Of a stretch of DNA of 64,000 bases, positions 10,797 through 39,471 are shown one piece after another. Every line of letters begins with the position of its first letter. Positions within the stretch are counted from its first letter, which is position 1. Both the position numbers and the translations under genes were made by a program. The notes under the pieces were generated by a model. That model did no database searches. It saw nothing but the letters and a program-made list of their open reading frames with translations, and was not told the DNA's origin. The DNA is from Siphonodentalium dalli (Eukaryota; Mollusca; Scaphopoda; Gadilida; Siphonodentaliidae), in the NCBI GenBank assembly GCA_032622095.1, contig CP136066.1, positions 95,501,319 through 95,565,318 on the forward strand. The letters are read 5' to 3'.

Positions 10797-10863
10797 GGTA
10801 ATTTTTTTAATAGAGAAAATATGGCACAAACTTCACATGAGAAGCTAAAAACAACTATACGTA

Positions 10864-10967
10864 TCTACTATATATTTTGAGAACTCCGTATATATATGTG
10901 TATGTGTGTATATACTTTATAGAATCGAAAACGGCTGTACCGAATTGAGACCAAACTTCCTATCTAA
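10864..10967 (+). mobile_element. 5' fragment of a Helitron-like unit
   Basis: A|TCTACTATATATTTTGAGAAC matches the start of the complete unit at 30164. It continues with a GTGTATGTGTGTATA tract and the family words ATAGAATCGAAAACGGC and CCAAACTTC. The unit stops abruptly at a G run that begins the neighbouring repeat. Confidence 0.6.
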
Positions 10968-16595: not shown

Positions 16596-16870
16596 ATTTT
16601 AGGTGTAATCAAAGGACGAAAAGCTCTTTATTCAATATCTCGTGCGTGTGCAAATAAAGCGCCCCTCCCTCTAAAAACTTCCCTTAAACTGTTTGATAAG
16701 TTAATCAAGCCTATACTTCTATATGGCAGTGAATTATGGGCAAGTGAATTAACAATCAAAAATCACGAACGTTATCCGCGTGAGAAACTTCATATCACAC
16801 ATTGCAAACAAATACTTGGAGTCGGTAAATACGCTTCAAACAATGCAGTCAGAGCCGAATTAGGTAGCTA
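16596..16870 (+). pseudogene. LINE reverse transcriptase, C-terminal region, upstream piece
   Basis: Translation in the frame TTA-GGT-GTA (16599) gives a typical post-palm segment of non-LTR retrotransposon RTs. It contains LFDKLIKPILLYGSELW, then KLHITHCKQILGVGKYAS and AVRAELGSY. Known LINEs of the jockey/CR1 type carry (V/I)KPILLYGSE.W followed by F/HCK.ILGV in this order before the C-terminal zinc knuckle. The frame is blocked at 16593-16595 (TAA). At 16870 the homology stops inside the Tyr codon of ELGSY, exactly at the boundary of the 22.6-kb insertion. The same reading frame resumes at 39472. I infer a dead, 5'-truncated LINE that was the insertion target. Confidence 0.85.
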
Positions 16871-17290
16871 CACACTAAATTCAAAGTTGGTAAATTAACG
16901 ATAAAAGTAGTTAAATTTTACTACTTTAGGTAGTTCGTATTCATCCCGCTACCTTGGGTGGTTAATTTTACTACCTGATGGGTAGGTAAAAAATTAAATA
17001 CCTTTGGTAGTTAAAATAACTACATTCGGTAGTTGAAATAACTACCCCCGGGGGCTATTTTAACTACCCAACGGGAGGCAAATTTTTAACTACTTTGGGT
17101 AGGGGGATGAATACGAACTACCCAGTAGTTAATTTTACTACCCGTGGGTGGTTGGAATTTTAACTACCTACGGGTAGTTAATCTGATAACTACTATTGGT
17201 GGGAAAGTTTTCTACCTAGAATGGTTATTCTAACTATTTTAATTGGTAATTCAAAGGTGTCCCATCTAACCACTCCAAGTAGCTATTTTA
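16871..17290. repeat. Left subterminal region, AACTACC/GGTAGTT array
   Basis: About 420 bp with roughly twenty degenerate copies of AACTACC or GGTAGTT on alternating strands, often separated by AATTTT. A stronger internal mirror pairs GGTAGTTCGTATTCATCCC (near 16927) with GGGATGAATACGAACTACCC (near 17103). The matching right-end array is at 39317-39469. Confidence 0.85.
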
Positions 17291-18560
17291 CCTCTAAAGA
17301 TAGTAATGACATGTGGACCACAAAATAAGACAATGCAGAAAATAATTTCAATATTTATTAAAAACAAAACATAAATATTTATATATATAGTTCAGAGCAT
17401 TTGTGCTTTTAGCAAATTGCAATACAAGGTTTCTTACCAGGAATAAGTACATTAGCCTGCACAAAACAATGTCAATTTTGTGAAAATCGATGGATTCTAA
17501 TAGTTGAAAATTTGACCCAATGCCAGGGAATCTCATCAGACTTCAAATGTCTTAAAAGGTCACTAAAACTTATTTCATCCAAATTGATTGTTGCAATCTG
17601 ATTTGTCAATTTTTTTAAAACAGCGATAAACTGAAATGGAGTGTCATTTGACCTCAGACGTCTTTAAAAAGCAAAAATGAGCAATAAAGAGCGTTCCTTT
17701 AAACATATGTAGCAACATTGGACAAAAGTAAAACTAGTAATGCATGGTTAATATTTTGGATAGGTGCTGTGGGCATCAAATTATTTATAAATGGGCTACT
17801 AATCAGCAATAAAGAGCTTTATTATATTCTTAAAACATAGATGTAACTTTGTCAGGAGTTATATTTCAGCTGCTGTTTATCCCAGATACTTAATTATTTA
17901 AATGACTTGAAGGGTCGCAAATAACGCATTCTTAACATTAGCACTGATGCTACCCAGCTAAGGTTGTGCATAAAAAATTGCCCTAGGTCAAGTTTTTTTG
18001 GTTGCTCATATTAGAGTGAATCTGTTTTACCAAGAATCAATAAATATATGTATATATAAAAAAAATGGAAGAACTAAGTGCCATAACTCTGGTAGAAAAG
18101 ATATCTGACAATCCCTACTTTTGAACTCAAATGAGATATTGTTGTGAAAGTTTGTTCATGTTATCATGCCAAAGGTCATATATAACATTACAAAACTGAT
18201 ATACTAAGGGCTATAATTCAGGTAAAATAAATCTTCAAACTCAATTGATATATTCATGTGAAAGGTCCGCATAAAAAATTACTGGTCTTTCACTGGGTCT
18301 CAACTTTATTCCAAAAAAATCACGTATTGGGACGTTTTTATCTATTTTAGAGATTTGTATTTGTTCAAACATATTTATATATATATTAAAAAAAATTCAC
18401 TTTGTGGGCTTTGCAATACTAATGGGAGTGCATGAACTAATGGTTGTATTGTTTATATGCAGTTGTGGACTACACAAGAGTCGATAAATAATTCCAAAGA
18501 ACATAACATGTTCATGTTCAAAATATTGTTTTATAGCTTTAACCAATAATAAAAAATACG
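17291..18560. other. Left body of the insertion, no gene recognised
   Basis: AT-rich with frequent stops on both strands. AATAAAGAGC words recur here and in the dispersed repeat at 4170/24890, but I see no exon. Confidence 0.45.
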
Positions 18561-18666
18561 GAAGCACCCTTCAGACATGATATCAGTCTTCAACCCAGAG
18601 AACATTACGGGCATGGATTAGTATCCCTCGTCACAACTGGGCGGAGCCACTCTCCCGTATCATTCA

Positions 18667-18783
18667 TTACGAGCATCGAGACACCAGGTGCGTGGCATCC
18701 GAAATAGTATTGTAGCCTCTTTCATACCATTTCAGTCGAGTAGAGTCACAACAGCCCTCGCACCTCGCATAGCCATTAGCCAA
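18667..18783 (-). pseudogene. Possible Cys-rich coding trace inside the insertion
   Basis: On the minus strand a 38-codon open stretch reads NGYARCEGCCDSTRLKWYER and ends HLVSRCS at a TAA. A GTAATG donor-like site overlaps the stop. The clustered Cys and charged residues look more protein-like than the surrounding AT-rich DNA. I do not recognise it, and it may be chance. Confidence 0.2.
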
Positions 18784-19202
18784 AAGATAATTTTATAATT
18801 TTGTGTAGTCCACTTGAGGTATCGTTATATGCAGTGAAAGAATATATTAATCACCAAATTTGCCAAAATTGCCTTAGATAATGTTCGGCTTACAAGGAAA
18901 AATACTTGGCATCACCATTTTTTGTATGGGTATCACGTAAATCCACAAAAGCAAAGAGTATAGACAATCATAATTGAGAACGCTCTTGTGTACTGCTTTT
19001 TTAGCCAACAATTGCACATTATTTCATTATATTTAAAATGGATAAAAATAATACCCATATAGTTTGACGAGATACAAGGCTTATTTTTGCTCGAATGTAT
19101 AATTCAGCAAATGGGGGAACTTCGCTAAAGCTCGGTTCCCATTTGGAATTTATTTACTGAATCATACTCGCGAAAATAAACGATGTATCTCATCAACAGT
19201 AT

Positions 19203-19680
19203 TTATGGATATTCTATATTTAACCACTCAATCAACTCATCGATGCGATGCCCGAGAGTGACAACAACTTTCCCCCCTTGTGTCGTCATTCTCTGGGGAT
19301 CAATTCCACCAAGTACAGAATCGCAAACAAGTACTTGTAAGGGCAATTGAACATCATCACCATTATCAAAATGAAACTGTTTCCACATAAATGCGGCCGA
19401 CCTAACCAGCAAGCGAGTCAGATTGTCAGTGATCATCTGACAGGTAGAGAAAACATTCAATACCATATTGGTCAATGACATGGTACCACACGTCATTCGG
19501 AATATGTAGCAATGACTGGCAGTCTAACAAAATGTGTTGTAATTCATGCCAGGAGCATTAATGATATCGTCTAGCTTGTGTGGGTATCGTGCTTTGCTTT
19601 CCCAGTATATACCAAAATCAACAAATAAAATCACAAATGTGGCATCAGATTTCTCCCCAGATGTACCGTTATGAAACTAC
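19203..19680 (-). pseudogene. Decayed coding sequence of unknown function inside the insertion
   Basis: Reading the minus strand from about 19680, three successive frames give protein-like segments that abut. The first has ATFVILFVDFGIYWESKAR and PHKLDDIINAPGMNYNTF, then a stop. The second has SLLHIPNDVWYHVIDQYGIE. The third, a 97-codon frame to the stop at 19203, has LPLQVLVCDSVLGGIDPQ and KVVVTLGHRIDELIEWLN. A TTTCAGTAG acceptor-like site precedes the first. The frame changes suggest two indels in a once-continuous exon. I do not recognise the family; it may be cargo or transposase of the insertion. A transposase identity is not supported by any visible DDE motif. Confidence 0.4.
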
Positions 19681-20612
19681 TGAAATGTGCCAATATTTGG
19701 TATAAAACAAAACAATGAGTATGAGGCTCTTGGGTTTGGGAGAAAAATAATCCATTATGACCTGGGATGTGGGCATAGAAAAATCTTATCTTCGGGGCCA
19801 GCTATTGGGTCCGAACAATCGGTCGAAATATCTTGTCCCTCGGGTGAGATCTTTCCATCCCCACGCCCCAGGTCATGATGGATAATATTATTCTGGTCTC
19901 AACTTAACTTCAGCTGAACACGCACTGCGCCCATAATTTTTTGCATTTCTGTTAAAGTTACAAAGAGCATATATAGTTAATGAAAATGTCCCTGGATTCT
20001 AATCACATGTTCACGGCATGCATGTGTTATCAACTGCTACAGATGACCAATCAGCCATGACATGAGGATACACCTGTTGTGTCTTGTCAATACATACGAA
20101 CGAACAAGTTTTCCATGTGTACATCACCTCCATACACATGTGTATAATCAGTTCTAATTAAAATTAGGCTCTAGAATAAGTTACACATAACAGAGTCTTA
20201 ATGAATATAACTATCAGTCAAATAGCCATCGCTATAAATAGCTTCTGCATACAATTCCTGCTGTATAACATCAACTCACAGTGTTACGATGGACAGAATG
20301 CTATCTCCTGTCACTTTCATTTTGGCGATAAGAAAAACGGGTGCTTACTGTTGCAATTCTTGGAAATGCTTAATTCTATTCTCCTTGATGGGTATTATTG
20401 ATCAATTATGGACTCTTCAAGTATACACACATTAGTGTTAAATTAGTTGTTGTAATTACCAAATTTGTGAACACTGTGAAAATAGCAATGTGACTAGATA
20501 TGACATAATGACAGGAAACTTATTATGCTATTTTAGCTATGTGTCGAAAAACTCTGGATTCGATGAAAATCGTCAATTGACTGATTGGCTTCATCACTTT
20601 ACTGTTAAATGT

Positions 20613-20803
20613 TGTAATAAATTCAAAAAGGCGAGGATGATCCTCCAGGGAGGTAATCTCAATCACTTGAATATCCTAATTTTTAGGATATTCAAGTGAT
20701 TGAGATTACCTCCCTGGAGGATCATCCTGACCATTTTTAGGATATTCAAGTGATTGAGATTACCTCCCTGGAGGATCATCCTCGCCTTTTTGAATTTATT
20801 ACC
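20613..20803. repeat. Triple block: palindrome plus direct repeat
   Basis: A block containing GGATGATCCTCCAGGGAGGT and CAATCACTTGAATATCCT occurs three times. It runs forward at about 20613-20680 and as complement at about 20683-20731 and 20736-20803. The copies are nearly identical, so the structure is young. It looks like a fold-back whose right arm was duplicated. Confidence 0.9.
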
Positions 20804-21734
20804 TCATTACTCAATCACATTAAATATGGCCACGAGCATTTCTCTCACCAGTGTCACACCCGTTGACATCAACTTCCCCACACCCAACGTGTCCCTCACT
20901 ATAGTAATCCATGTTGACAACTTACAAAGGGGAACTAAATGCACACGCACAAATCTGGAACACTAAACCTCAGCACAGCACCTCAGCTCGCAAACAAAGA
21001 GAGAGATAGCGCGGATCCTCATTCTCCGCGAACCCTACCACCAGTAGGCACTAACAAGAAGGACTTTAATTAGTCGCCTCCAATTTATGTTAAATGTTGT
21101 GCTTGTCTGATGCTGATGTAAAGATTCTTGGTGGTAATGGAATTCCAAGATATTTTCCTTAGACTCTTTAATGCATACCGGTAGCTTGTTCAATTTATAT
21201 AATTATATAATACACACGCTTCACACATCTCAATGATATACCCGGTAGTGAAATTAATACACAAAATAATAGAAAAAAATCTTCAAGGTGACATGCAGCA
21301 GTTTTTAGAGTGATCTGGGCCACAAATATTAATGTTCCATGATCCCAAAAAGTGGAAACCCGAAGGTTGTGTTTGTGTAACAACCGCACTTTTCAGTTAG
21401 ATGAGAATCCATCCTATATTTTATGAGTTCAAGGAATACTATTTCACAAGCAGCATATTCACGTCGCACAATAGGCCTATAGCACATAGGGGATAGCCCC
21501 AAAATTGTCTATCAGATTTTTAAAATAATTTTGAGACAGGCGGTGAACTCTTCTTTTACTGGTCAAATCCTATCATTGGCTCTGTATCCAATTATAAGAT
21601 ACACTTTGTAAAAGAATAAATACATGTATCACTTGACTTATCATCTTGCTGAAATATGATATGTGTTGGGAGAAATAAACAGCGATTGCTTTAACCTCAA
21701 TCAGTGATGTCACAAAAATTTGGGGAGATAGGTA

Positions 21735-21965
21735 ATGATGTTTTCGGTCAAAATGCAAAACCTATCTCAAAACATTGACATGTTACGCTGCACATCAGCA
21801 GATAAGCGCATTTATAAAATAGCACGATTGCAGGATATGTTGGCTGACCAAATGGGCAACCAATTAAATTCATTATTTTGGCAAATGATGAAACCAGTTG
21901 CATATGTCACCTTTAACTGTAGATTCAAGATCCAAACATTTTCAACGTATTATTCAGGTTTCTAA
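21735..21965 (+). pseudogene. Possible coding trace
   Basis: A 76-codon ATG-initiated frame contains KRIYKIARLQDMLADQMGNQ and LNSLFWQMMKPVAYVTF. It lies upstream of stronger traces on the same strand at 22320-23605 and could belong to the same dead gene. There is no recognisable family and no splice proof. Confidence 0.2.
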
Positions 21966-22070
21966 ATGTATGCATTCAATATGTGATTACCTGGTAATTT
22001 CAATTATGTCTAAGAACGTTTCATAATTTTATAGCGAACTGCTTGGTTCAGTAAAACGTTTTTAGTTTAG

Positions 22071-22206
22071 TTGTGGTGGATTGATAGTAACATGGTGTGA
22101 CATTGACGACTTCGGGTTTATGTTCAACCAATTCGCAAAGCAATGAGGTTGAACATACACTAGAAGCGGTCAATGTCATGCCATGTTACCGCCAATCCAC
22201 CACAAT
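22071..22206. repeat. Hairpin, about 58-bp arms
   Basis: TTGTGGTGGATTG.(T/C)(A/G)GTAACATGG to GTTCAACC is answered by its complement after a 17-nt spacer (22129-22146). It sits between protein-like traces and interrupts them. Confidence 0.85.
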
Positions 22207-22319
22207 AGCGTATATGTTCTACCAACAGTCCTGGTCATTCACATTAATTTGGCACTTATTCCGAAGAATGATCAGCAGAAAATGTCAAAATCTCCTATAC
22301 CTCTCTCCAACATAAATGA

Positions 22320-23605
22320 CGTCATGAAAAGGCCATCGAGAGACGATGGAAAGGTCTTGGTTTCCGTTATGTTGATGCTCCAGATGTAAACATAGAATAT
22401 GTTGCGCAACTCTTTGATCAAAGACACGGTTTCTTACTGGGAGCGGAACATTGAATGATTTTTAACCTGGTCACCATGTTAAGAGAATTTCCTGCAGTAC
22501 ATACACATGTACATAAGTGCAAACTGTGCGATGCTGAACCTTTAATTCTTAGTACGAACACCAAACTACACTGACTCAAGCTCAGAATCATTTAGGTGCT
22601 TGTTGTGTTGAACTTCTTCTCTGTACTTCCAATGTAGTTCCAAACATGTTTCCGTTATGTTGATGGCTCCAGATGTAAACATGGGATATGTTGCGCGACT
22701 TTCTTACCAACCAAAGATGTGGTTTCTTACTGGAAGCGGAACATTGTATGACTTTCATCCTAGTCACCATGTTAGAGAATTTCCTGCTATACATACACAT
22801 GTACATGGATGCAACCTGTGGGTATGATGTTGAGCCTTTAATTCTTAGTATGAACATCGAATTACACTACCCGAAGCTCAGAGATCGGGATAATATTCTT
22901 CTCTGTAGTTCCAATGTAGTTCCAAACATGTTCCTACCTGCAAATAAGGGTCAAACGAGATGATGTACATGTACATTAATAAAAGTGTTAATGTAGCTCA
23001 GCTTGGACATGAGATATAATTCTCACAGAACATCATGGAATGATGAAGGTGGAAATTTCCAGTGATGGATTGAAGCGTATACCTTCTGTTAAGCAGATTC
23101 ATATATCACACATTGTTCTAGGCCTTTGCCGACCCATTACAACAGGATTGGGTGCCCAAAATTGGTTATAACCAAACCGTAATATTCAGAATTTGTCATG
23201 TTTTTGTACATTAATTATATTTCGGAAAATGCTCAAAGATGTAATTAAATCTAAAACAGCATTGGACGTAACAATAATCAGTGCCATTGTAGCTACATGT
23301 ACATATAACATTAAATACTAACAGAGCATTATTTTTGTAAATATCTGGTGGAATTTCTGAAGATATTTTTGGCATGCCTGCATTATTGATTGGAGTACCT
23401 GTACACAAAAACCGATGTGGCTCTATGTCAGGGTTAATGGAAGAGCTACTGGACATTCGTAAACTAGATGCCAAGATGGTCAAGGGCATAACCCTGGACC
23501 ATTTAGTTTATGAATGTCCGGTAGCGAGTCCAATAAGTTATAACCGACTTAAACAGTTTTATAATATGCAAGGAGAAAGTACATTGATCCAATACATGCA
23601 TAAAT
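22320..23605 (+). pseudogene. Decayed protein-coding gene of unknown family with internal duplication
   Basis: Three protein-like segments occur on one strand. At 22323-22450: KAIERRWKGLGFRYVDAPDV then DQRHGFLLGAEH and a stop. At 22650-22963: a partner copy of the same region with RCGFLLEAEHC, then YDVEPLILSMNIELHYPKL and SSNVVPNMFLPANKG. At 23341-23605: DIFGMPALLIGVPVHKNRCG, SMSGLMEELLDIRKLDAKMV, ITLDHLVYECPVASPISYNR, ending YMHKFQ where repeat family D begins. His/Cys spacing (THVHKCKLC in the first copy) hints at metal binding, but no family is recognised. Stops and frame changes show it is dead. Confidence 0.4.
22330..22935 (+). repeat. Tandem duplication of about 300 bp inside the dead gene
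   Basis: GTTATGTTGATG.CTCCAGATGTAAACAT starts copies near 22365 and 22660. Both end with CCAATGTAGTTCCAAACATG (near 22625 and 22910). The copies differ by indels that shift their frames, so they diverged after coding constraint was lost. Confidence 0.85.
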
Positions 23606-23865
23606 TTCAGGCACGTATGGCATTTTTTCCCTTTCGATCATTTTTTGTACCCACCCACCCCCACCGCCAAATTTGTTTCCATTTTCGGCAGTTTTTCCGA
23701 CCATTTTTTGACACCCACCCCCCCCTTTTAACACTAAAACAGAGATTTGCGGGGGGAAATTCACTGTAAACAGCTGTATATGAATTTCTGTGCATACTAT
23801 TTATCATGGATGTTAACATGGACATGTAAATAGGAATGAGTCATTTTTAGGTTATTCCCCCCCCC
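23605..23865 (+). mobile_element. G-run repeat family D, copy 2
   Basis: TTTCAGGCACGTATGGCATT, the C-rich block, AACACTAAAACAGAGATTTG and AACAGCTGTATATGAATTTC match 10988-11220 almost exactly. This copy lacks the leading G run and starts within the open frame of the dead gene, adding spurious codons to it. Confidence 0.85.
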
Positions 23866-24572
23866 CCGATACATGCTGCTTTTTCTGACAAGGAATTGTA
23901 TTACATAAACAAGGGCGTTTATAAGCAATATGCTGATGATTGATATTTCTTGAATAGAGATCCCCGTGGCGTGGGAGTTCGTAGTGCAAACATTGGGAGA
24001 CATGACCATTCTAGATTACAAAATGACGGTAGGGGTAACAATATCATGAATATAACGAAACATATACAATAAATGGTACATGTAATTATTGCTCATTAGA
24101 TAGTAGCACAAATGATGTGAGCTGTTTTTAAAGCTCATTTGGTTGTGATTTAAGGAACGATTTTTAAGTTATGACCATTGAAATTTCGTCAAATATATAT
24201 GCCAAAAAATTATCAACTTTTTTTCAAAATACGTCTATCCTTTTGTGATATTTCTTTTTGCTCATAATAAGTAGACTAATTGGGGTCAGTTAAGTGGATG
24301 TTTCGTTTCATTTATCACAATTTTAACTATCATTGATTGATTTTATAGAATATAGCCATTTTCAAGGAATTTTGACACGAGTTTGACCATTTAAAAACAA
24401 AATTCTGGGCTTTGCCCCATATGCCATACACCTCAGAAATTCTGATGTAGAATAGTACACAGAAATAGAAAATCAAAATAGGAATTTCTCCATCTCCGGG
24501 TGACAGCTACCTCAGCCACAACACGGTCTAATCAGTAAAGATCACTGGCATATGGAGCCTCACATATTATTA
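23866..24572. other. No gene recognised
   Basis: Contains a C run near 23858-23867 followed by AT-rich sequence with no exon-like frame. Confidence 0.45.
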
Positions 24573-24690
24573 ATTGATATATAAGAGAATGCACTGGCTT
24601 ACAAGGTCATGGTAAATATTGTTAGGCCAATGTATTATCTTGTATTGGCGGGGGAGACTCTTATATAAGAGAATGCATTGGCACAGGATT
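24573..24690 (-). mobile_element. MITE family E hairpin
   Basis: ATATAAGAGAATGCACTGG, CCAATGTATTATCTT and TAAGAGAATGCATTGGCACA match, on the opposite strand, the block at 32547-32665. Confidence 0.75.
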
Positions 24691-24889
24691 TTCCCAACTC
24701 AATATCATCAAATGATAGACCCCCCCCCCTTTACCCTAGATGGGAAGATTCAACAGATCTATCATGTTTGTTGCATAAATTCGCTCCATTGATAGTAGAC
24801 CTTGTCTGTGCAAGAATTTGCTGATGATAATGGGATTTGACATGAAAGTCATCTGATACTCAGTATTATCTGGAGAACATTAAAGGCAA

Positions 24890-25405
24890 GAGCGGCGTTC
24901 GTTGCAGGAATATTTCTATTTGTTCAAATCGCCATCAACGGAAGGAACACCAAAATACATACAATTCCGCTCATATGCCAAACATAATCAGAGCGTAAAT
25001 ATAACATTGTCGTCAAGACGTACGATGGTGTACAAAAACAAGAACCTGCTTGTGTTACAGCAGTTGTGCTTCTGTTTACACAACACAACGTAATTTATTG
25101 GTTAATCACACAAAAATTATATAAACGCTCTTTATTATTTCCATATCGGGAAAAGAGTAACAAATAACGCTCTTTATGTTTACCATATCCGGATCTAAAC
25201 AAAAGTCAGAAAACGTAACTTTTTTTGCTTCTGTTTAATACATAACAAGGGGAAAACATTTACAATAGCATACTGTTTTTGCCATATTTCTGATTGGGAT
25301 AAGAACAAAGTCTGTCTATATTTTACTATTATTTCTGTTTATGGTGGTTTTTGACCGAGGTGAATATTTGAACAGCAAACCCACCTCCAAGGCCGCCCAT
25401 ATCTT
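24890..25405 (+). repeat. Dispersed repeat, copy 2 (partner at 4170-4660)
   Basis: Same block order as the 4170 copy: GTGTTACAGCAG, GGTTAATCACACA, GCTCTTTATGTTTACCAT, CAAAGTCTGTCTAT, GTTTTTGACCG and CCCACCTCCAAGGCCGCCC. The copies are diverged by substitutions and small indels. Confidence 0.75.
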
Positions 25406-26660
25406 CAACTCTTTCTATACCGGTACTTATGTATTTTCCCTAAGTTATGAAAGTATACATTGGAATTTCCTGTTATTAATCTGGAGGTCGGTTCATGAAA
25501 AAATAAGCACATAATAACAGATAATACCGGTACAAAAGAGTTATTTAATTGAAGGACATGTTCACATAATAACTTATAAGTTCCAATAAACCAAAGGTTG
25601 TTTGTTGAACTTATTACCTGTATATTTTCTAATGGAACTACTCGTCAATGAGGATTTAGAATAAAAAGAGTTAAAGCTAGTGATAGTGTGCCTGTCCCAA
25701 TTGTAAAGCATGATAATTAATACTTACTGGATTAAAACTCAAAAATGAATCTCCATAATCTTTTACCAATGGTCTGACCAACTTCTAATGCATACGCTTC
25801 AAGTTAGGGAGAGTGAATTGGTAGTATGAATAAAGCACCTGTGTCCGTTCTCCTGGAAATAACAAATGTCAAAATATTTCACTCTCATCAAAATGTCCCC
25901 TTCAATTCGACACCATATAATTACTACTCTATGAATTTAATATACTATTCACTTTTTTACTATATCCCACTATAAATTCAAAATACTCATTCCCAATTGG
26001 ATGAGGGCATGAGTTTGCCATCTTGACACAATTTCAAGTCATATAATTTCATTGCTGACTGTTTAGAGGTAAGCATGTACCATTTTGCACCCACCTCAAC
26101 TATGTGGGTTCGTTTACCACGCCCTGTAATCGCATATGGATGTGACTGGAGTTGGAAAAAATAGTTAACACCACTGAAAAACGATAAACCTCGTATTTTT
26201 AGAATCAAAAGCTACTTTTGACATCAGTTTACTGGATATTGATGTAGTCATGATTGGGGGTGTAAATATATATTTCAACAAGGTCAAACAAGGGCCGCAA
26301 CTGAGAAAAATGAATGCACAACTCCAGTTGTGTACGGGAATCCCTTAATATCCCCAATATGTGCTATCACCATGCAGAAGGACAAAAACTCTTATTGTTA
26401 GCGCCTGATTTACAAGGTGATACTAGTATGTTCATACAGACAGACTGGTAGATGAATGACAGCCCTTGACTGCATGTATTATTATATGCCCTGAACGTCC
26501 TTCAGGGGTCGGGGCATAATAAATCCACATTCCAGTATACCCATCATTCGCTTCATTAATATGGGTACAGATATTAATATTATATAGATCTGGTTTCTAA
26601 TGGATAGTTGGTCTGAACATGATCAAGGTATTATATACATGTACCGGACTACCGGTACAT
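25406..26660. other. No gene recognised
   Basis: AT-rich. A compact hairpin-like TATGCCCTGAACGTCCTTCA with GGGGCATAATAA near 26487-26521 resembles the tail of the repeat at 29123-29527. No exon. Confidence 0.45.
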
Positions 26661-28726: not shown

Positions 28727-29122
28727 GTTGAGATACGTCTAAGAAAAAAATGTTTCCGATAATAAATTTCCGGTGATAACAACGATCTAATATCGATAAT
28801 ATATAGAAACATAAGTAATTTGAGTCAAAGATGTATTTTGTAAATGCTCAGGTTAATAGGCTATCTTAAAATCAAAGTTAATAATTTGCTATAAATTCAA
28901 TTTATGACTGGAGCCATAAAATGGCGTAAATTAAATTACGAATTTCCGTGTACAAGACGTAATCAAATTAATTGAGGGATACTGGATTGGTAAATGGCAC
29001 ACACGATCGTTTTAAACATAATGCTGATACGGGGAGAAAACTCAAGCCACTCAGTGACTAGTGACGATACAATCATACAATAACTTAAATGAGTATATGG
29101 GACTAGTATGCATATAATATAA

Positions 29123-29527
29123 CTTTTATAAGTCAAAATAAGTCGAAAATAAGGTGTAATATTACGAAAAACAGTCTGAGCCAATCCCTAGCCGCATCAT
29201 GTAGAGAGGGTATTGTGAGAAGCATGTATACCAAAAATTATTGAAATCGGTTCATATTTGTTAAAGCTATTAAGTCGGACAGAATTTTCTAAGTCAAAAT
29301 AAGTCGAAAAAGAGGCGTAACTTGAAAAAAAAAAGTCGGACCGAACCGCGGAGACATGCGGAGACACCGTCCTAAGGAGATTGCATACAAAAAATTATTG
29401 AAATCGGTTCATAGTTGTTCGAGTTATGAGGTCAGACGGACGGACAGACAAACAGACGGAGTAAGCGTGACGGACAGACGCAGTCAATCCAGTATACCCC
29501 CCATTTTCTTCGAAAGTGGGGGTATAA
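29123..29527 (+). repeat. Tandem ~160-bp repeat ending in a strong hairpin
   Basis: TAAGTCAAAATAAGTCGAAAA and ATTATTGAAATCGGTTCATA recur at about 29125/29290 and 29240/29395. A GACGGACGGACAGACAAACAG tract follows. The end is TATACCCCCCATTTTC, TTC, GAAAGTGGGGGTATA, a near-perfect stem at 29493-29527. I recognise this style of repeat from mollusc genomes but do not assign a family. Confidence 0.7.
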
Positions 29528-30163
29528 TTACTCGACAACGACAATTTGTATTTTTGCATTTGGGTAAATTTGCCATCCGTAACACTACTTCGTACTCAAC
29601 AGACTTTCAAATAATGGAAAAATTGTTACCTTATTCTCCAACTCAGAGACTATAGAAGCCAACAACAACATTTGTGTACAGTATCCCTTTAAACCTTTAG
29701 TTGCCACCTTATCTCTTAGAATCTTACTGACAGCCTAAAAACTTCTGCTTCATCCTTTGAAGATGTAAGTACCTTGAGGGAATGAAAGAATTAGATATTA
29801 TTTTTTTTACGCAAATGACCTGTGGACAGATGCTCGTAGTCTGTTTATATATAACCATGGATATATGCCAGATATAACCGTACAAAAAAAAATACTGTGC
29901 TTTTGACAGTGTATTTATCCATGGCGTGTGTGACTGTGGTTGGTCGTAATCTAGTGTCCGGTGTTATTGTTTTGAAGGTTTATCATGTTCGACTGATGTT
30001 GTTAGCATGGTAATGGGATTAGCGGTTTCTATGTCTTGTCTGGTCAGATGTTATGTTTGAGCTTTGTCTGAAATTAACAAATTTTTATACTAGAATTTGC
30101 GTAACAGGAGCATGAGGAAATCACATGTTGAGTGCATTTAATGGTTTTTAGAGACCGAATATA

Positions 30164-30923
30164 TCTATTATATATTTTGGAAGATCTGTGTGTGTGTGGG
30201 TGTGTGTGTCTGTCTGTCAGTAATCGATGGACTCGAAAATGGCCCAGCCGATTTCGATGAAACTTGGTATGTGGGGGTATTTTCGGGTCAGGACTAACAT
30301 AGGCCTATTAATTTGTCCGTGCGAGGTCAACTTTTCACGTGCCGAGGTCAAATCTGTTTTTACGCCGTTTTGCGCTAATATATTTCAGTTCGGTGCTTAC
30401 AAATCGATTCGAAACAGCGCGAATAATAACATGCCAGTCATAATAATGACACTATGAGAATCTTTCGTGTTTCCTCTTTCCAACGATATATAATATGTAT
30501 GTATCCGTTTTAGTTATCTGCCTCAATTATTAAGAAGAAGTGGTACGATCTTCTATCAGGGTAAAAACAATGCGTAACTTCTATGACGTCGTTAGAGGTC
30601 ATAAAGTTAGATCACGTTAACTCTTCTCCGGCCGATGCATTTGACTGTTTCAGACGTCTTGGCGATATCTCGGGCACCGATGGTAATTTAACTTTACGTT
30701 GAAACTTGATAATTAATGAGCGTGTGTATATGAGGCGCGTTTATATACTTGAGTGGAAATCAAATCGGGTTAAAAGGTCAAATCGGGTAAAACCGGATGG
30801 ATTTCGACGGGTACTTTTGTTCGGGCAGTGTTTTGGACGGGTCAAATCGTGACCCCACTTGACCTTGGCCTTCAAAATAGACAATTCAAGGTCAAAACCG
30901 GACGAAGTCGGGTCACCTTCTAG
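30164..30923 (+). mobile_element. Complete non-autonomous Helitron-like element
   Basis: Inserted precisely between A (30163) and T (30924). It starts TCTATTATATATTTTGGAAG, followed by (GT)n and GATGGACTCGAAAATGGCCC. It ends CCGGACGAAGTCGGG, TCACCTT, CTAG. 5'-TC, a 3' hairpin then CTRR, and insertion between A and T without duplication are Helitron hallmarks. The interior holds CAAATCGGGTAAAACCGGATG words shared with 12390-13130. No Rep/helicase coding is seen. Confidence 0.8.
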
Positions 30924-31440
30924 TATGATATAGAGATAATGAAATCATATATAATCATATATATATACTGCATCCAATTTGGGTTGATATGGGTGACTTT
31001 CATGTAGTTTTGTGGTTATGAGACCACATGCAGGCCTTGTTATTGGCCCCCTGATTTCTGCTCTGTTGTCTTTAAACTTTTTTATATCTTTTGCAACATG
31101 GGTGCCACCAGGATATCTCCAGATTATAATACCGGGCTGACTATTGCAGATCTCCCCAATGGGTGCAGCTAACCCTCATGGACAAGGGGTTGTATCCCCT
31201 CCCTGACGAGATCAAACCCTGTTTTCCAATGAGATCTAATATTGACAATTTCTCATCATCAGTGATGAATGCAAGACCACCCTCTTGGGACGGGGCATCA
31301 GAGTGGGACGTGGGCTGGTTATGCATGGGTCTTAATCCCACCAACTGCAGTCAAACATCACTCAACATTTAGTTGGAAACTTTATACCAAAAATAGGTTG
31401 AAATTGTGGTCATAGATTTTCCAACAATTTATTAGTGACA
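30924..31440. other. Mostly unassigned; weak minus-strand frame 31141-31344
   Basis: A 67-codon minus frame contains FITDDEKLSILDLIGKQGLI and could be exonic, but the plus strand is equally open here and no splice signals decide it. Confidence 0.2.
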
Positions 31441-31657
31441 TACACAGCTGACATACATGTATACATGTATATTCCTTTCAAATTGCAAATCGTCTCACTG
31501 CGTGTATAAACCACCGACCCCCCGGAGAGCAACTGACAAACTTGCCCAGATACATGATTCCAGTCACTCTACCTATGACGGGGTTCGAACCAGCTTCGTC
31601 GGCACTGGACAGAGTAAATCACCTGGCACTCTACCGACTGTACCACCGGGAGCCCCT
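31440..31657 (-). mobile_element. tRNA-derived SINE-like head
   Basis: On the minus strand GGTTCGAACCC (31580-31591) is a perfect RNA polymerase III B box. About 50 nt upstream, TGGTACAGTCGGTAGAGTGC resembles an A box. The two boxes have tRNA-like spacing, but no full acceptor stem or cloverleaf can be drawn, so a functional tRNA is unlikely. The downstream body continues towards 31440. Confidence 0.55.
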
Positions 31658-31659
31658 GA

Positions 31660-31990
31660 GTTATAATAATGCATAATGTGTTTACGGATGGAACAAGACC
31701 GGAAACTCTGGTATGCATTGACAGGCAAAACCTGTCCTTCCCTATCATTCTGGTCTATCACCATACCAAACCAAATCGGAAATTCGACAACAGACACTTA
31801 TATTGCAAAAACTTTGAACGGACTGAATTTCATAAAGCCGAACAGGGCCCATAACTCTGGTAGGCATCGATGGTCACAACCCATGATATTATGCATATTC
31901 ATTCCCCATTTCTGGTCTGTCACCGTGCCATAGAGCATCAAAATATGACAACCGACTCCCGAGTTACAATGCAAAATGTTTGTATGGTCG
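31660..31990 (+). repeat. 'ataactctggta' repeat, two diverged units
   Basis: CTCTGGTA.GCAT, ATCATTCTGGTCTATCACCAT and AATCGGAAATTCGACAAC in the first unit are answered by CATAACTCTGGTAGGCAT, CATTTCTGGTCTGTCACCGT and ATATGACAACCGACTCC in the second. Confidence 0.6.
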
Positions 31991-32080
31991 GACGGTCAAC
32001 AATATACCGGTACCTGCCAACTAATATCAGGGGATATAATAACCATACATGTATATCTCTGTGTATACCTAACCAAAAAC

Positions 32081-32171
32081 AATTCCCCTCCACCACCCCA
32101 CCTTTGGTGAATAAGACTGAAAAAAAAAAAAATTCCCCTCCACCACCCCACCTCGGTGAATAAGACTGAAG
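32081..32171. repeat. Two-copy 50-bp direct repeat
   Basis: AATTCCCCTCCACCACCCCA and GGTGAATAAGACTGAA occur at 32081 and 32131, separated by a poly-A stretch. Confidence 0.9.
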
Positions 32172-32281
32172 AGTTTTTTGGTCATGTACAAATAATTGTG
32201 GAACCCCTGACTTGTTTACCACTATTTACACTGGCCAGTGTTCTGTCACACACAACACACTCGATATATTAAGGCTACAGT

Positions 32282-32811
32282 CAGGGAAGGATCCAGGGCT
32301 CTTTTGATACCTGTTACAGGTTTGGGCGCCCAAACTCTGGTGGCCTAAATGTCCCCAAATTGCAAGTGGATAGTTTTATTAAAGCTGAATTTTCTATATT
32401 TTGAAGGAAATCTTCTATTATAATTCAACAATATGCAATGCAAATCATCAATATACAGTTGATATAGAGCCTTTATTTGCTTAATCAAGTGTCCAGTGAG
32501 AAATATTTTAACCCTTTCATGACTGGGGTTTCTTGAAATTTTGCAAAAATCCTGTGCCAATGCATTCTCTTATATAAATGAGTGTCTCCCATCTAAGGAG
32601 CCTCGAATATAAAAGATAATACATTGGCCTTTATCTTGACCTTGTAAGCCAGTGCATTTTCTTATGCGGGATCCTTAATGCTGCACCTAAGGAAGGGGGC
32701 GACCCCCTTCCATACCTACCCCCATCTCAGGCCTACGGCCCTCGGGATATGCCTTCTGCATATCATGGTCCCAAAACAGGTGTCCCCAAAAAATCCCTGG
32801 ATCCATCCCTG
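32282..32811. mobile_element. Non-autonomous hAT element with perfect 8-bp duplication
   Basis: Termini CAGGGAAGGATCCAGGG and CCCTGGATCCATCCCTG form a 17-bp inverted repeat with one mismatch. GCTACAGT flanks both sides (32274-32281 and 32812-32819). An 8-bp duplication and CAGGG ends define hAT. The right duplication spans the TA and the first four bases of the MITE at 32816, so the hAT inserted into the edge of that older MITE. The body contains a family E hairpin and no transposase. Confidence 0.92.
32547..32665 (+). mobile_element. MITE family E hairpin nested in the hAT element
   Basis: CCTGTGCCAATGCATTCTCT, AAGATAATACATTGGCC and CTTGTAAGCCAGTGCATT match the 24573-24690 block in reverse. 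Confidence 0.75.
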
Positions 32812-32815
32812 GCTA

Positions 32816-33033
32816 CAGTAATGCCCTATTAAAGTAATCACCATCTTTAAATAACCAGCAGAATTATGGATAACTTTTCAGGATTTAGTTGGAAATATGG
32901 CTTGTTGCCATTCATCGGAAAGCTTACGGCGAGAGCTTTCCGATGAAAGGCAACAAGCCATATTCCGACTAAATCCTGAACGTTACCCATAATTCTGCTT
33001 TGGTTAAGAGGTTGATTACTTAGGGCATTACTG
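32816..33033. mobile_element. MITE family A, intact copy with TA duplication
   Basis: CAGTAATGCCC to GGGCATTACTG with TA at 33034-33035. The left TA (32814-32815) is now also part of the hAT target. The palindromic arms share GGATTTAG.(T/C)GGAAATATGGC and GGCTTGTTGCC.TTCAT. It is the best-preserved member of the family. Confidence 0.9.
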
Positions 33034-33064
33034 TATAATGGGGTCTAGGACTATTTGTGACATA

Positions 33065-33450
33065 CCCCGCTGGACAAAACAAGTGTCCATTGGCACCGCG
33101 GTGTATTTGCCGTTCGGCCGCGGTGTCAGAGTTTGTAACTGCAGTTGAGCACCGCGGCCGAACGGCAAGTACGCCGTGGCCCAACAGCAAGTACACTGCG
33201 GCCGAAAGGCAACTACACCGCAGCCGAACGGCATGTACACCGTGGTTAGATTTCTGGTTTGCATCGTCTTTTTTCAGTTTAATGAACGTACACCGCGGTG
33301 TGGCAATTACGCCATGGCCGAACGGCAAGTACACCGCGGCCCAACTGTAGTTAGCCGGTGGAGCCGCGGTGTACTAGTAGTTGCATTTCAGCCACGGTGG
33401 CAACGCTAACTGCACCGCGGTTAGGTGTACACTTGTTTTGTCAAGCAGGG
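33065..33450. mobile_element. TIR element filled with 22-24 bp GC-rich repeats, TA duplication
   Basis: Ends CCCCGCTGGACAAAACAAG and the complement of CCCTGCTTGACAAAACAAG, each followed by TGT, lie between TA (33063-33064) and TA (33451-33452). The inside consists of about ten degenerate units of CACCGCGGCCGAACGGCAAG type in both orientations. The central part (TTTCTGGTTTGCATCG) is non-repetitive. TA duplication suggests a Tc1/mariner-mobilised MITE. The interior is far more GC-rich than its surroundings. Confidence 0.85.
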
Positions 33451-33452
33451 TA

Positions 33453-34646
33453 TTTTAATGTACCTACATGTACATGCTTTATCATTGTTGTTAGATACAG
33501 GAAACACCTGGAAATACAGTTTGTTTTTCTGATCTGTGTTTACCAATTAAGCATGTTATTGCTCGAGTCTTAATGGTACACAGCAAGAGTTTGCACCAAA
33601 AAAGGATAGTGGAATGGGATTGAAAGGCAGTTAACACAGTTACCGTATTGATGAACGGCTAAAAAAAAACTCAAAAATTTTGAAAAAAAAACATGAGAAA
33701 GGGGGGTGGGCCCCCAAAATTTGAGGATTTTTTTTGCACAAATGGGGTGATGGTTTTCTCGGGGTCTGAATTTTATTTTTTTGGCCCTATATGTGCAATA
33801 TTTTTCCAGACCCCCCTGGTCTGAGGTTATTTTTAGGGTCGGTCGACGTGCGGAAACATGTATCTTTTTTCATTGGCCTAAGTATATATCCACATAGTTT
33901 TTCACAATTTACGTAGATCCGTCCACTGCGCGTTTATATGTTGAAATCAACTGTAAACAATAGAAAGATGGGGAGAGTGTGCACATGCACGTAGCATTGG
34001 AACTGTTTTAATTATCTACTTGGATTAACTGTTATAAAGAATTTTTTTCAACACACAGAAAAAATAGATATGATATGAAGTATAAGATATGAGCTTTGTG
34101 TTCCGCAATGCTGTATAATTTGAATGTTGTGTTGAGTGAACGGCGTGTAAACAATATACTGTAGACACATACTGAGGAAAAATAATTGAAAACAAATTTA
34201 ATCCTTCTTGAAATGTACTTGCAAAGTACAATATTTTGTCCACCTGGCAATTGCACCCAATTTGCCCCAGTACCAGGGACGTGGCAACAGGGTGATTGGG
34301 GGGGGGGAGTATCTTGTTCTCATTGCTTGATTTTCGAACCAGAAATTACAAGTGCCCATTTAGTAGGAAATTTCTATTTTTAGACTAACAGTAGCATATG
34401 TTTCTATGTCATTTTAGCACTGCTGCACGTTTCCAGTACCTGCAAATCATGTATATTGAACTTCCTTCCGTATTCATGTTTCAAAATTAGTTTTTTATCC
34501 AGCCAGAATGCACTTTTGAGATATCAACCCATATATAGAATTTGAGTAGTTTTTAGTACATAATACATGTACCTATGAAAGGGAGAAAAAAAAATATATA
34601 TATATTCAACCTCAATCGTACTAAAATCAATTGTTTTTGTCTTCCA
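33453..34646. other. No gene recognised; possible hAT-like end at 34275
   Basis: Low-complexity A/T and G/C runs (33660-33830). CAGGGACGTGGCAACAGGG at 34275 followed by a G run resembles the terminus at 54687, but no partner end was found. Confidence 0.4.
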
Positions 34647-35028
34647 TTAAAGACATATTATGGACTTGTTTGGGTGCGTGAAGTGACCAGTTAGTATACT
34701 CAGGCATTACGCCAACCTGGGAAAGGTACCATTCTGCTAACTTTCTACTAAATTTCAAAGAAATCAACGAAACCACTTCATAGAAAATATCGTCTGAACT
34801 ACGATCAACTGTAAATATTTACATCTCGATTCGGGACGCAACTATCGACAATAAAAACATACAAATGATTTCTCCATCGAGAGTCATTGCATTGAATTAA
34901 AATAACAGAATGACGATGTGTGTTGTCAATTTGGATTAATATTCGTAAAAAATAACTATGGTACTTTGAGCAAGATTATTCTCTATTTCTATTTGATCAC
35001 CCAACCGAAGTGTTTCACATCACTTTAA
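34647..35028 (+). mobile_element. TTAA-flanked MITE family B, full copy
   Basis: TTAA, then AGACATATTATGGACTTGTT at the left and TGTTTCACATCAC then TTTAA at the right. It is collinear with 45038-45414 throughout. Both TTAA edges are intact. No coding. Confidence 0.85.
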
Positions 35029-36857
35029 TAATCATTCAGATTCTATATACAATGAAGATCTGCATAATTTTTTCACATAAAAGCAGAGAGAAATAGATAT
35101 AACAACATAGAGATAATATATAGAGCATACTAGTATATCGTTAAAGGAGGTGCCACAAATAGATGTGAGCTAAAAAGCTTTTTGTACCAGAAAAATGACT
35201 TTGAAACAGAGTATATCTGCAATATTATGCCATTGTTTTGGCATTCAAATGTGAAAAACTATAACTTCAACAGTATCATTAGGCAGCCCATTATGATAAG
35301 TGACATACCGTTAAGAGCCAAGGAGCTATGCTTTAGATTAATGTTCACTGTATCGTTTGAAAAACGTCCGCTAAAACGTGTCAGTTTTTCTTGGGAGCCA
35401 GTCGCCATATTTCTATTGTAAACACATGTTCATGATGTTGTTGTCATGTCTTAATTCGCAGCAGGTACATGAAAATCGACCATAAAAGCAATTCGATCAT
35501 GCAATCGGGCAAGTTTATGATATGAAATCGATGCTTTCAGTTTATTTAAGTTGTTGGAATTAATTTAGCTGCTTGATTACCCACGATTTATGAAGTTTTG
35601 TGCTGTTTAGAGATGGAAATGTTGATATTTTATTTTTATAATTACCAGTCTATAGTCGAAAGCGAGATTACAAGATGTCGTATTATTACGCAAATCACAT
35701 AAATAGAAAAATTACATGTTTCAGAATATCAGGCCTTCGATTATGAGGCGTGCGATCGCGCTCGCGCACCATAGCACGCCTGAAATTAAATCTTGGCGAG
35801 TAATTAATCACACTCCTCGGCGATATTCGGCGCACGATTGAAAAAGGGTTTATAATAACGATCAACCTTGTTTGCTGGAGAAGACTGACAGACATGCCGT
35901 ATACGACGGAAGTAATTGTTTTAAGTTTTGCGCATGCGCTAGAACATTATTATAGTCAGGTGCGTTTAGCGATGTCGTCGCATTCGTATGTAGGTCTGAG
36001 TAATTCTCGGCTAGATATTGTTACCAACATGACATATTTAAATTAATCCCACCGTGCACCCCATCACCAATGCAACGTAATTTTGGTACCATGATTGTGT
36101 TGCGTTCTAAATGAAGCCGCCCCGATGGGCGGTGAAGATGAATAGAAATTGAAACTTGAGTTCGGGGCAATCAAACATTATTTTTAAAAATATCGATAGA
36201 GTTCACACAACAGGAAACTCTCACGTGGTTACATGGTCTCTGACCGCATTTCATAACAACTTACATCCAACGGAAGCATTACGACGCAATTCGAGAATGG
36301 AGTTTTAATTACTTCAATGTGGAGAATACATGTGTACAAGATGAATCACAATGGTGATAAAATTGATTTAATTTTGAGTCTTCGTTTGTCATTTTATACC
36401 CCCGAAATATCCACCAAAATCACACGGGTTTCAGGTTAGGCGAGTGACCAACCACACTCCTGCATTTTACAGAATCGAAGGCATGGAATATTGTATTATT
36501 CTAAAATCAAATAGCCTACATGTATATAAAAACATATTTATGAATAGGAAAGTACCGTATTCCGACGAAATATGTCATATTTTACGACGGACTCCTTGTG
36601 CGAGTTCACTTCCGGTCAATTCTATTTTGGTGCACTGGGAGAAAAACATTGTGGAGAAAAAAATACGTTTAATAACATTTGAATGTAAATTAATCGAGAA
36701 ATTGTCGGTTATCAGGTACAATCATACCGGTATAGCTTATAACCCATATATATTGATGGGCATAATCAAAAGCTTGATCCCATGCGCGATTGTCTATTCT
36801 GATCGATTTCCATTCGTAATCGTATTCTAGTATTGACGGATGGGTTTGTTTGTAATC
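35029..36857. other. No gene recognised
   Basis: A 128-codon open frame at 36444-36830 has unremarkable composition and no splice context, and I do not accept it as a gene. The remaining frames are short. Confidence 0.4.
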
Positions 36858-37112
36858 ATGGCCGCCCCGCCCCCATGGCATGTGTATCGGCTATCGCAAA
36901 ATAATGTTAGGATATTATGGTCTCCCATAACAAGAAAAATAGTTCCTAAGAATGTAAACAATGCAAATGGAGGACATTTTGCCATTATTCAGGATGACAG
37001 TACTATTTTCACAGGCAGGGTATTTGGGAAAGTTCTTGTTTTTCCTCAAAATGATGTCTCCTTGTCTCTAGCCAGATTCTTACAGGACCATTTTGACTGT
37101 TCAGTTTGTTAA
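36858..37112 (+). CDS. Possible first exon or small ORF inside the insertion
   Basis: An ATG in strong context (ATCATGGCC) opens an 84-codon frame beginning MAAPPPWHVYRLSQNNV. It continues HFAIIQDDSTIFTGRVFG and LARFLQDHFDCSVC to a TAA. Its composition is protein-like. A GGGTATTT donor-like site near 37019 could end a first exon earlier. I recognise no family. It could be cargo of the large element or a chance frame. Confidence 0.3.
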   Translation: MAAPPPWHVYRLSQNNVRILWSPITRKIVPKNVNNANGGHFAIIQDDSTIFTGRVFGKVLVFPQNDVSLSLARFLQDHFDCSVC

Positions 37113-37982
37113 CCATTGGAACTGGAGAAACGCCGTTTGGGGACATGATTTTTTGTCACTCTACTTGGAAGTAGCCAAGGATATGCCACGATTTCGCATC
37201 TAAAATAAAACAGTGCTTGATAATATTTTTTGGCTTGCAACATTGTCGTGAGCATGCACAATTCAACTACTGGTTACTTCCTTTATCGATAATGGAAATT
37301 TTTCCACTTACGACAGCTGCTTACGATTGAATCGTGGTCGTCTGAACGTTCACCAATTGACTGTTTTAACTTTTAGCCCAATCGTTGAATCGGGCCATTA
37401 TATATCGATCCGTTGTTTACCCAGAACTGTTTATGTACAGTGACTGTGGTTGGACACACAAAATTTTTCTTCTCACATTAATCATTACTAATAAAAAAGA
37501 CACTGACACTTTACTAATAGTAGGCCTAATACTATTATTTTTAGGAAATCTACCTTTCCAATATTCGAGGTACATGTATCACCCATGATCACTTCATAAT
37601 TGGACGTTATATGTCATATTTCCTATAAAAACCTCATGCATATGTGTTCATACGATAGTACAAAAGAAACTTACCATGGGAACGAATGCAATGTCATATT
37701 TTAATCATCTAAATCCAACAGAGAGAAGTTCCGACCGCGTGCATGGTCCGGGCGGATACAAGACATTTCGTACCTGAACGTTTCGTACCATCTGGTACCA
37801 TCTGGTCGTTTCGTAGCGTACTGCCAGAGGCAGAAAGACGTGGAACCTTGCTATTTCCACTGGAGTGACTGGACAGTTATCGAGAAAAGTCCGCCGTTAA
37901 AGTTCGGAATATTTTCAAACAGAGTTTAAACAACGATCACGTGGCATGCAGTTTAACCAATCAGGAATACGAACCGTTTAAC
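37113..37982. other. No gene recognised
   Basis: Contains a small duplication GTACCATCTGG (about 37787 and 37797). No exon-like frame. Confidence 0.45.
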
Positions 37983-39313
37983 ACGAACATGACATTTGGA
38001 ACTTATTCCCGACCCCAAATACCACCAAGAATCACCCCGACCCCACCCACCACCCCAGGGGGTGTTTCTATGTGGTATTTGGGGTGGGCCACCCACTCAT
38101 GCCGTCAAATCGGTCGAAATCCTTGCCGTTCTCGAGAATGGTCCATACCCCATTTTCACCCCTCGGGGTGGCACCCCCGGGGTGATGGTGGGGTCGGGGT
38201 GTTTCTATGTGGTATTTGGGGCCGGCCACCCACCCATGGCGTCAAATCGGTCGAAATCCTTACCGTTCTCGAAAATTGTCCATATCCCAATTTTCACCCC
38301 CTCGGGGTGGCACCCCGGGGGTGATGGGCGGGGGTCGGGGTGTTTCTAGGTGGTATTTGGGCCCGGCCACCCACACATTCCGTCAACTCGGTCGAAATCC
38401 TTACCGTTCTCGAAAATTGTCCATATCCCCATTTTCACCCCCTCGCGGGGGGGGGGGCACACTGGGGGTGATGGGTGGGGGTCGGGGTGTTTCTTGGTGA
38501 TATTTGGGGCCGGCCACCCACCCATGCCGTCAAATCGGTCGAAATCCTTACCGTTCTCGAAAATTGTCCATATCCCAATTTTCACCCCCTCGGGGTGGCA
38601 CCCTCCGGGGTGATGGGTGTGGGGTCGGGGTGTTTCTAGGTGGTATTTGGGGCCGGCCACCCACCCATGCCGTCAACTCGGTCGAAATCCTTACCGTTCT
38701 CGAAAATTGTCCATATCCCCATTTTCACCCCCTCGCGGGGGGGGGGGACACACTGGGGGTGATGGGTGGGGGTCGGGGTGTTTCTTGGTGATATTTGGGG
38801 CCGGCCACCCACCCATGCCGTCAAATCGGTCGAAATCCTTACCGTTCTCGAAAATTGTCCATATCCCAATTTTCACCCCCTCGGGGTGGCACCCTCCGGG
38901 GTGATGGGTGGGGGGTCGGGGTGTTTCTATGTGGTATTTGGGGCCGGCCACCCACCCATGCCGTCAACTCGGTCGAAATCCTTACCGTTCTCGAAAATTG
39001 TCCATATCCCAATTTTCACCCCCTCAGGGTGGCACCCCGGGGTTGATGGGTGGGGGTCGGGGTGTTTCTAGGTGGTATTTGGGGCCGGCCACCCACCCAT
39101 GCCGTCAACTCGGTCGAAATCCTTACCGTTCTCGAAAATTGTCCATATCCCCATTTTCACCCCCTCGGGGTGGCACCCCCGGGGGTGATGGTGGGGGTCG
39201 GGGTGTTTCTTGGTGGTATTTGGGGCCGGCCTCCCACCCATGCCCTGAAATCGGCCGAAAGCCACATTTTTGAAAATAAAGAATAGGGAATAAGTTCCAA
39301 ATGTCATGTTCGT
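37983..39313. mobile_element. TIR-bounded element containing a 9-unit satellite array
   Basis: CGAACATGACATTTGGAACT then TATTCCC at the left is mirrored exactly at the right end (39288-39313). Between them are nine units of 137-148 bp, each with TCGGTCGAAATCCTTACCGT and a C-rich TTTTCACCCCCTCGGGGTGG block. Unit anchors fall at 38111, 38248, 38389, 38536, 38679, 38827, 38970, 39111 and 39252. TCAACTCGG and TCAAATCGG variants alternate with 143/148 spacing, a dimeric higher-order pattern. Stop-poor GC-rich units leave several frames open on both strands, which are not genes. Confidence 0.85.
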
Positions 39314-39316
39314 CCA

Positions 39317-39469
39317 TTTAACTACCTATGTAAGAATCTTTGCTACCTAATCAGTATTTAAAATACCAGCTCCAGGTAGCTAAAATGACTAGGAAAAGTA
39401 GCTAAAAAGACTAGGAGAGTAGTGAAAAAATTTTAACTACCCAAATCTATCTACTTTTTTTTTAGTGTG
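39317..39469. repeat. Right subterminal region of the 22.6-kb insertion
   Basis: TTAACTACCTATG, GCTACCTAATC, AGGTAGCTAAAATGAC, AGTAGCTAAA, TTTTAACTACCCAAA and a final TTTTTTTTAGTGTG. The words and spacing match the left end at 16871-17290 but are fewer. Confidence 0.8.
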
Positions 39470-39471
39470 TA

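Follow-up and report, generated by a model that had tools for sequence, protein, structure and literature searches.

Does the 22,599-bp stretch that lies between two short inverted repeats in the genome of the scaphopod mollusc Siphonodentalium dalli represent one transposition unit and, if so, what moves it? The window analysed comprises 64,000 nucleotides of contig CP136066.1 (assembly GCA_032622095.1, positions 95,501,319 to 95,565,318), and positions given without a locus label count from its first letter. The element is a genuine giant transposition unit that occurs at dozens of places and not a swollen miniature inverted-repeat transposable element (MITE), because its ends are paired, its copies are collinear, 2-bp duplications flank it and an empty site exists. 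It is probably a giant non-autonomous cut-and-paste transposon, moved by a DDE transposase encoded elsewhere, for which the CACTA/CMC group is the most likely source. The unit and its insertion site are made up as follows (strand given where one is assigned).

16871..39469: giant terminal inverted repeat (TIR) transposon, one unit of 22,599 bp, defined by paired ends, empty site and collinear copies
16871..16879, plus strand: left terminal inverted repeat CACACTAAA, read and located by an exact 26-mer starting there
39461..39469, minus strand: right terminal inverted repeat TTTAGTGTG, read
16869..16870: target-site duplication TA, left copy, from flanks and empty site
39470..39471: target-site duplication TA, right copy, from flanks and empty site
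16780..16870, plus strand: host sequence resembling a long interspersed nuclear element (LINE), split by the insertion, part to its left; called LINE-like from reading, with no domain match
39470..40177, plus strand: remainder of the host LINE-like open reading frame (ORF), right side; LINE-like by reading, no Pfam match

An earlier note on this DNA had described perfect inverted ends and a duplication of TA or TAC. The ends are exact: CACACTAAA and TTTAGTGTG are 9 bp long, perfectly inverted, and reach to 16871 and 39469. The flanks read ...GGTAGCTA before the element and TACCCG... after it. The LINE-like sequence L053 represents the empty site and equals the joined flanks minus one TA over 261 of 261 bases, without gaps; therefore, the duplication is TA, and TAC can be dropped. 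Two further empty copies, L054 and L055, match the joined flanks at 98.9% and 99.2%.

The genome searched consists of nine contigs totalling 2.23 Gb. Exact matches to a 26-mer number 91 for the left end and 23 for the right end, and the reversed-pattern control gave none in either case. With the left 500 bp as query, the best 40 of 393 first-look candidates were scored as full-length matches; with the right 210 bp, the best 40 of 1125 were scored. In total, 92 left ends and 44 right ends (the 40 from the 210-bp query and four more) were placed, and 37 of the 44 right ends have a left end upstream on the same strand within 80 kb. Since four stacked right ends on C4 share a single left end, these 37 correspond to 34 units, and three of the four were omitted from the unit lengths. 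The units measure 14,480 to 41,661 bp, with a median of 22,942 bp and the middle half at 21.2–25.9 kb; most are 14 to 32 kb long. Among them, a 31.6-kb copy lies at C7:75296433-75327991 and the 41.7-kb copy at C9:59539834-59581494. No placed end pair is closer than 14.5 kb, with short elements possible at the 58 of 92 left ends for which no right end was placed. The collection of other copies through their ends, which the earlier note had recommended, has thus yielded a family length and a duplication size of 2 bp; the copies of about 0.6 kb, or the ends that never co-occur, by which it would have given up a single 22,599-bp unit did not appear. An exact left partner is lacking for seven of the 44 right ends. 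One of these, L077, shares the last 1.1 kb and has different DNA upstream; a CACACTAAA located 1.9 kb upstream was considered as its partner end, has no arrays and unequal flanks, and was treated as a chance occurrence.

Some loci show local multiplication. At C4:204952385-204963272, the four right ends lie 2.9–4.8 kb apart downstream of one left end, which looks like local multiplication of the right part. L004, L014 and L015 (C3, 55.7 and 57.2 Mb) have identical bases before their left ends (over the 15 shown for the trio and the 40 shown for the pair L004 and L014), suggesting that the element-bearing locus itself was duplicated, once over 1.5 Mb and once nearby. L076 (C2:169556100-169558560) contains two left ends that are separated by 2,281 bp and share a flank, either by local duplication or as an effect of assembly. 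These shared flanks and stacked ends are what one would expect if segmental or tandem duplication of the locus, and not transposition, had spread the element; as an account of the family it is nonetheless wholly improbable, given 27 different flank pairs, base-exact ends, 2-bp duplications at nearly all of them and the empty site.

How much of the 22.6 kb is shared was addressed with 20 of the 40 scored left-end matches (L001–L020), each read for 10 kb from the left end; as they were drawn from the best 40 of 393 candidates, young copies are favoured among them. All 20 are collinear with the window copy, at block identities of 93–99%. The shared span is 8.3–9.7 kb in 18 copies, 7.5 kb in L016 and 3.5 kb in L015. 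L010 was read through to its right end; it is 16,970 bp long and has TA at both sides. When L010 and two further pieces of the copy at C6:141.3 Mb are added, only about 1.3 kb of the window copy has not been seen in another copy, namely the first two of the interior features below. Since reading past 10 kb was confined to a few copies, the evidence for the middle and right parts comes from one to seven copies.

30164..30923: repeat-rich stretch of about 760 bp, absent in L078 (C6:141.3 Mb), the sole copy read across this point without a larger deletion
32282..32811: 530-bp non-autonomous insert, which we take to be hAT-like from its general features, with ends CAGGGAAGGATCCAGGG and CAGGGATGGATCCAGGG and an 8-bp duplication GCTACAGT; absent from L010
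32813..33036: palindromic MITE of about 224 bp with CAGTAATGCCC ends next to TA, an older passenger that several copies share
38059..39260: satellite of about 142 bp, 8.4 copies, adjoining the right end inside the unit; also in L010 and L077

MITEs are short non-coding copies, under about 1 kb. Had a small MITE been swollen here by nested insertions, the 22.6 kb would be an accident of this locus, and the window copy does hold two inserts absent from the copies compared there, besides older repeats in its interior. Yet every copy read is collinear over at least 3.5 kb (18 of them over more than 8 kb of the 10 kb read), only some 1.3 of the 22.6 kb is unseen elsewhere, and the 34 units span 14.5–41.7 kb with no located end pair below that range. 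We consider a swollen MITE very improbable.

The interior includes pieces of other repeats, several of which recur elsewhere in the window. The palindromic MITE at 32813-33036 belongs to a family with CAGT(A/G)ATGCCC-like ends that is also found at 5297-5513, 8565-8646 and 58936-59081. Outside the element, 8946-9404 and 62773-63290 are stop-free tandem-repeat stretches that look like repeats and not like genes. Next to an element fragment, L015:5463-7263 contains frames that, on reading, resemble the reverse transcriptase and RNase H of LINEs of animal type. Rfam gave no match over 16000-40500.

The family is very young. Substitution divergence in the first 2.6 kb is 0.08–0.85%, with a median of 0.62% (153 pairs from 18 copies, the window copy included), the lowest value coming from a locally duplicated pair; L003, L019 and L020, misaligned through large indels, were excluded. 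Copies also differ by deletion: of the 20 copies, nine are missing element positions around 3270–4680, and in seven of those 8584–14053 is absent as well. One deletion junction carries a filler of about 12 bp, while at the others read the joined sequences share no more than one or two bases; such junctions would fit end joining or interrupted gap repair.

Flanking sequence was read at 28 of the 34 units, among which L014 was not counted as independent of L004. A 2-bp duplication is present at 26 of the 27 independent insertions (TA 13, TG 7, CA 6), where a 2-bp flank match is expected by chance at about 0.07 per site. All 26 are pyrimidine-purine (YR) dinucleotides, for which the chance from the dinucleotide content of the window is about 3e-16. 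A 3-bp duplication was absent in all ten pairs tested and, by reading, in 18 further rows. Tc1/mariner elements make a strict TA duplication; they are disfavoured here because 13 of the 26 duplications are CA or TG. KDZ (Zisupton) elements, judged on the duplication alone, are distinguished by 8 bp against the 2 bp found here.

Both ends carry word arrays, as the earlier note had also proposed.

16906..17253: left subterminal array, nine GGTAGTTAA-like words in forward and 12 in reverse orientation, up to two mismatches allowed
39318..39441: right subterminal array, four forward and four reverse GGTAGTTAA-like words with up to two mismatches
16907..17141: imperfect palindrome in the left subterminal part, self-complementary at 69%

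The left 450 bp contain eight exact AACTACC/GGTAGTT words (mean 0.26 and maximum 4 in 2000 first-order Markov random sequences) and the right 200 bp contain two (random mean 0.05, with a random maximum that is also two); the interior contains none. If up to two mismatches to the 9-base GGTAGTTAA are allowed, the left side has 21 words (against a mean of 4.7 and a maximum of 15 in 500 random sequences) and the right side eight (random mean 1.4, maximum 5). Many of these words are spaced by about 22 bp. The first 300 bp of the element fold far better than shuffled sequences (z = −8.9).

As to what the unit carries, Pfam scans, with X at stops, covered 16871-26472 and 26472-36472 on the plus strand and 17998-27998 and 28000-38000 on the minus strand of the window copy, and gave no match at E 0.1 in these frames. 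Ten ORFs of 91–150 amino acids gave nothing above the curated cut-off, and 38 of 100 second-order Markov random sequences contained an ORF at least as long as the longest of the core (150 amino acids). The decayed coding traces previously seen in the interior are thus of chance length, and coding cargo finds no support in the frames scanned. A virus-like giant element (Polinton or Teratorn-like) was rejected as well, no polymerase, integrase or viral gene being found among the same frames. Three extra segments of L007 had no Pfam match, where a tnp2 ORF read likewise as a positive control was found. Because the scanned stretches lack any Pfam domain and the ORFs are no longer than chance, the family is most likely non-autonomous.

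The contrary case, that the giant element is autonomous and that an intron-rich transposase or cargo genes escaped notice, could appeal to copies of up to 41.7 kb that were read in part (for the C9 copy L006, the first 9.7 kb) and to the 20.5-kb soybean Tgmt*, described as putatively autonomous (PMC2613891). Against it stand the empty scans of most window-copy frames and of the extra L007 segments, and the state of tnp2 genes in the host: the genome contains 78 PF02992 (tnp2) matches, 27 of them in open frames of 903–1016 codons, and none is near a placed end. An autonomous element is therefore improbable.

The preferred source of the transposase, the CACTA/CMC group, is suggested by the architecture. 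CAC ends together with dense subterminal words of one short motif are the CACTA pattern (PMC2613891; PMC8978399). In the element, the termini are CAC...GTG without the exact CACTA core, the subterminal arrays present one short motif in both orientations, and the 3-bp duplication of plant and fungal CACTA/EnSpm members is replaced by 2 bp. Compared with animal TRC-type elements, the 2-bp duplication is shared and the CCC core is not, the termini being CAC. In its ends, arrays and duplications the element resembles animal CACTA (TRC-type) elements, and membership of CACTA/EnSpm is unproven. Of the earlier description as CACTA-like, the CAC ends and the two-orientation arrays stand. In SmTRC1, a tnp2-bearing animal element, 2-bp duplications were reported in seven of 14 copies (PMC1636069), and members of the CMCT clade share CA..TG ends and duplications of 2–5 bp (PMC12730594).

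Several observations weigh against this assignment and against the non-autonomous reading. All 78 PF02992 matches are more than 150 kb away from the 92 left and 44 right ends placed, the nearest at 154 kb; ends with mismatches in the 26-mer are not all among those placed. By inspection, none of the 30 PF06869 matches in the genome is near a placed end either. Six tnp2 loci read over 8 kb are not flanked by CACACTA ends, where ends further out would escape. A transposase tied to the ends of the element was thus not found, and the one proposed is inferred. The element ends in CACAC and not in CACTA, animal TRC elements are reported with CCC ends (PMC1636069), and one of the 27 insertion sites has unequal flanks, TA and TG. 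Finally, minus-strand positions 16871-17997 and 38001-39469 lie outside the Pfam scan, as does the plus strand beyond 36472 except for the 150- and 91-amino-acid ORFs.

Two observations concern the tnp2 loci themselves. Twelve tnp2 matches lie within about 5 Mb at C7:18.8-24.0 Mb, each with one in-frame TAG, which looks like a localised expansion of an inactivated transposase gene. The L050 tnp2 locus was considered as a CCC-ended element with a 2-bp duplication; on reading, the matching stretches look like MITEs beside the ORF, and L050:5104-5290 belongs to the CAGT(A/G)ATGCCC-like family found in the window.

These points leave some room for a non-autonomous element served by a transposase from outside CACTA/CMC, such as a PHIS/ISL2EU-type or undescribed DDE enzyme. 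Duplications of 2 bp also occur among Harbinger relatives (PMC12730594), and no tnp2 gene is linked to the placed ends. The CAC..GTG ends with their two-orientation word arrays follow the CACTA pattern instead (PMC2613891; PMC8978399), and the non-TA half of the duplications disfavours Tc1/mariner. We regard such an enzyme as a possibility to be kept in mind, at well below even chances.

Among known systems, the animal TRC elements (SmTRC1 and others) are alike in the 2-bp duplication and the inverted repeats, and tnp2 (Transposase_21) families are present in the host genome; they differ in their CCC ends, and SmTRC1 is coding and about 4.5 kb long, whereas the element begins with CACAC, measures 14–42 kb and has no recognised genes (PMC1636069). 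The soybean Tgmt* (20.5 kb) shares the CAC ends, the size class and asymmetric subterminal arrays with direct and inverted copies of a short, stem-loop-capable motif, but its duplication is of 3 bp and it codes for tnp2 and TNP1 domains, against 2 bp and no recognised genes here (PMC2613891). The ESTA lineage belongs to the CMCT clade, whose CA..TG ends are similar, and gives TA duplications; the ESTA families described are fungal and encode TET/JBP, whereas half of the duplications of the element are CA or TG (PMC12730594). Large non-autonomous long terminal repeat (LTR) derivatives are likewise DNA trapped between functional ends and moved in trans, but rarely exceed 10 kb between the two LTRs (PMC6431247), while the element is TIR-based with a median of about 23 kb. 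Plant CACTA elements lengthened by capture of satellite arrays (PMC8978399) recall the satellite at the right end of the element. A bolder proposal, that the element represents a distinct TIR lineage with YR target choice, whose transposase routinely moves gene-free, apparently non-coding units of 20–40 kb in trans, is rather unlikely and is put forward tentatively.

Under the preferred reading, that of a non-autonomous transposon mobilised in trans, a DDE transposase, most likely CACTA/CMC in its animal (TRC-like) form, would be supplied from elsewhere, bind the GGTAGTT words and pair ends 20 kb apart, inserting the unit at YR sites. The ends of a progenitor may have trapped older host-type DNA (MITEs, satellite and other repeats), and this interior would since have been amplified as passenger DNA. 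Copies would then diversify through internal deletions and new nested insertions.

Enlarged CACTA elements are known, among them the gene-bearing Tgmt* (PMC2613891) and, in a red alga, families of 16–20 kb with 4–5 ORFs (PMC6431247). What is unusual here is that about 20 kb of DNA, apparently non-coding, has been mobilised repeatedly; in the open literature searched, as far as its accessible text goes, we found no description of a gene-free TIR element of such size and copy number. A survey of 100 animal genomes gave median lengths of 374 bp for the consensus sequences of the elements it covered and 224 bp for captured segments (PMC8277862).

Most non-autonomous TIR elements are short, and the efficiency of transposition is generally considered to fall as elements get longer. 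A very young family with a median of about 23 kb implies that some host transposase pairs ends at least 20 kb apart repeatedly. Passenger DNA has been added to the genome in bulk: the 34 located units sum to 0.82 Mb, and the 91 exact left ends would account for about 2 Mb, provided that every one of them marks a unit of median length. The element lends itself naturally to the study of size limits in cut-and-paste transposition.

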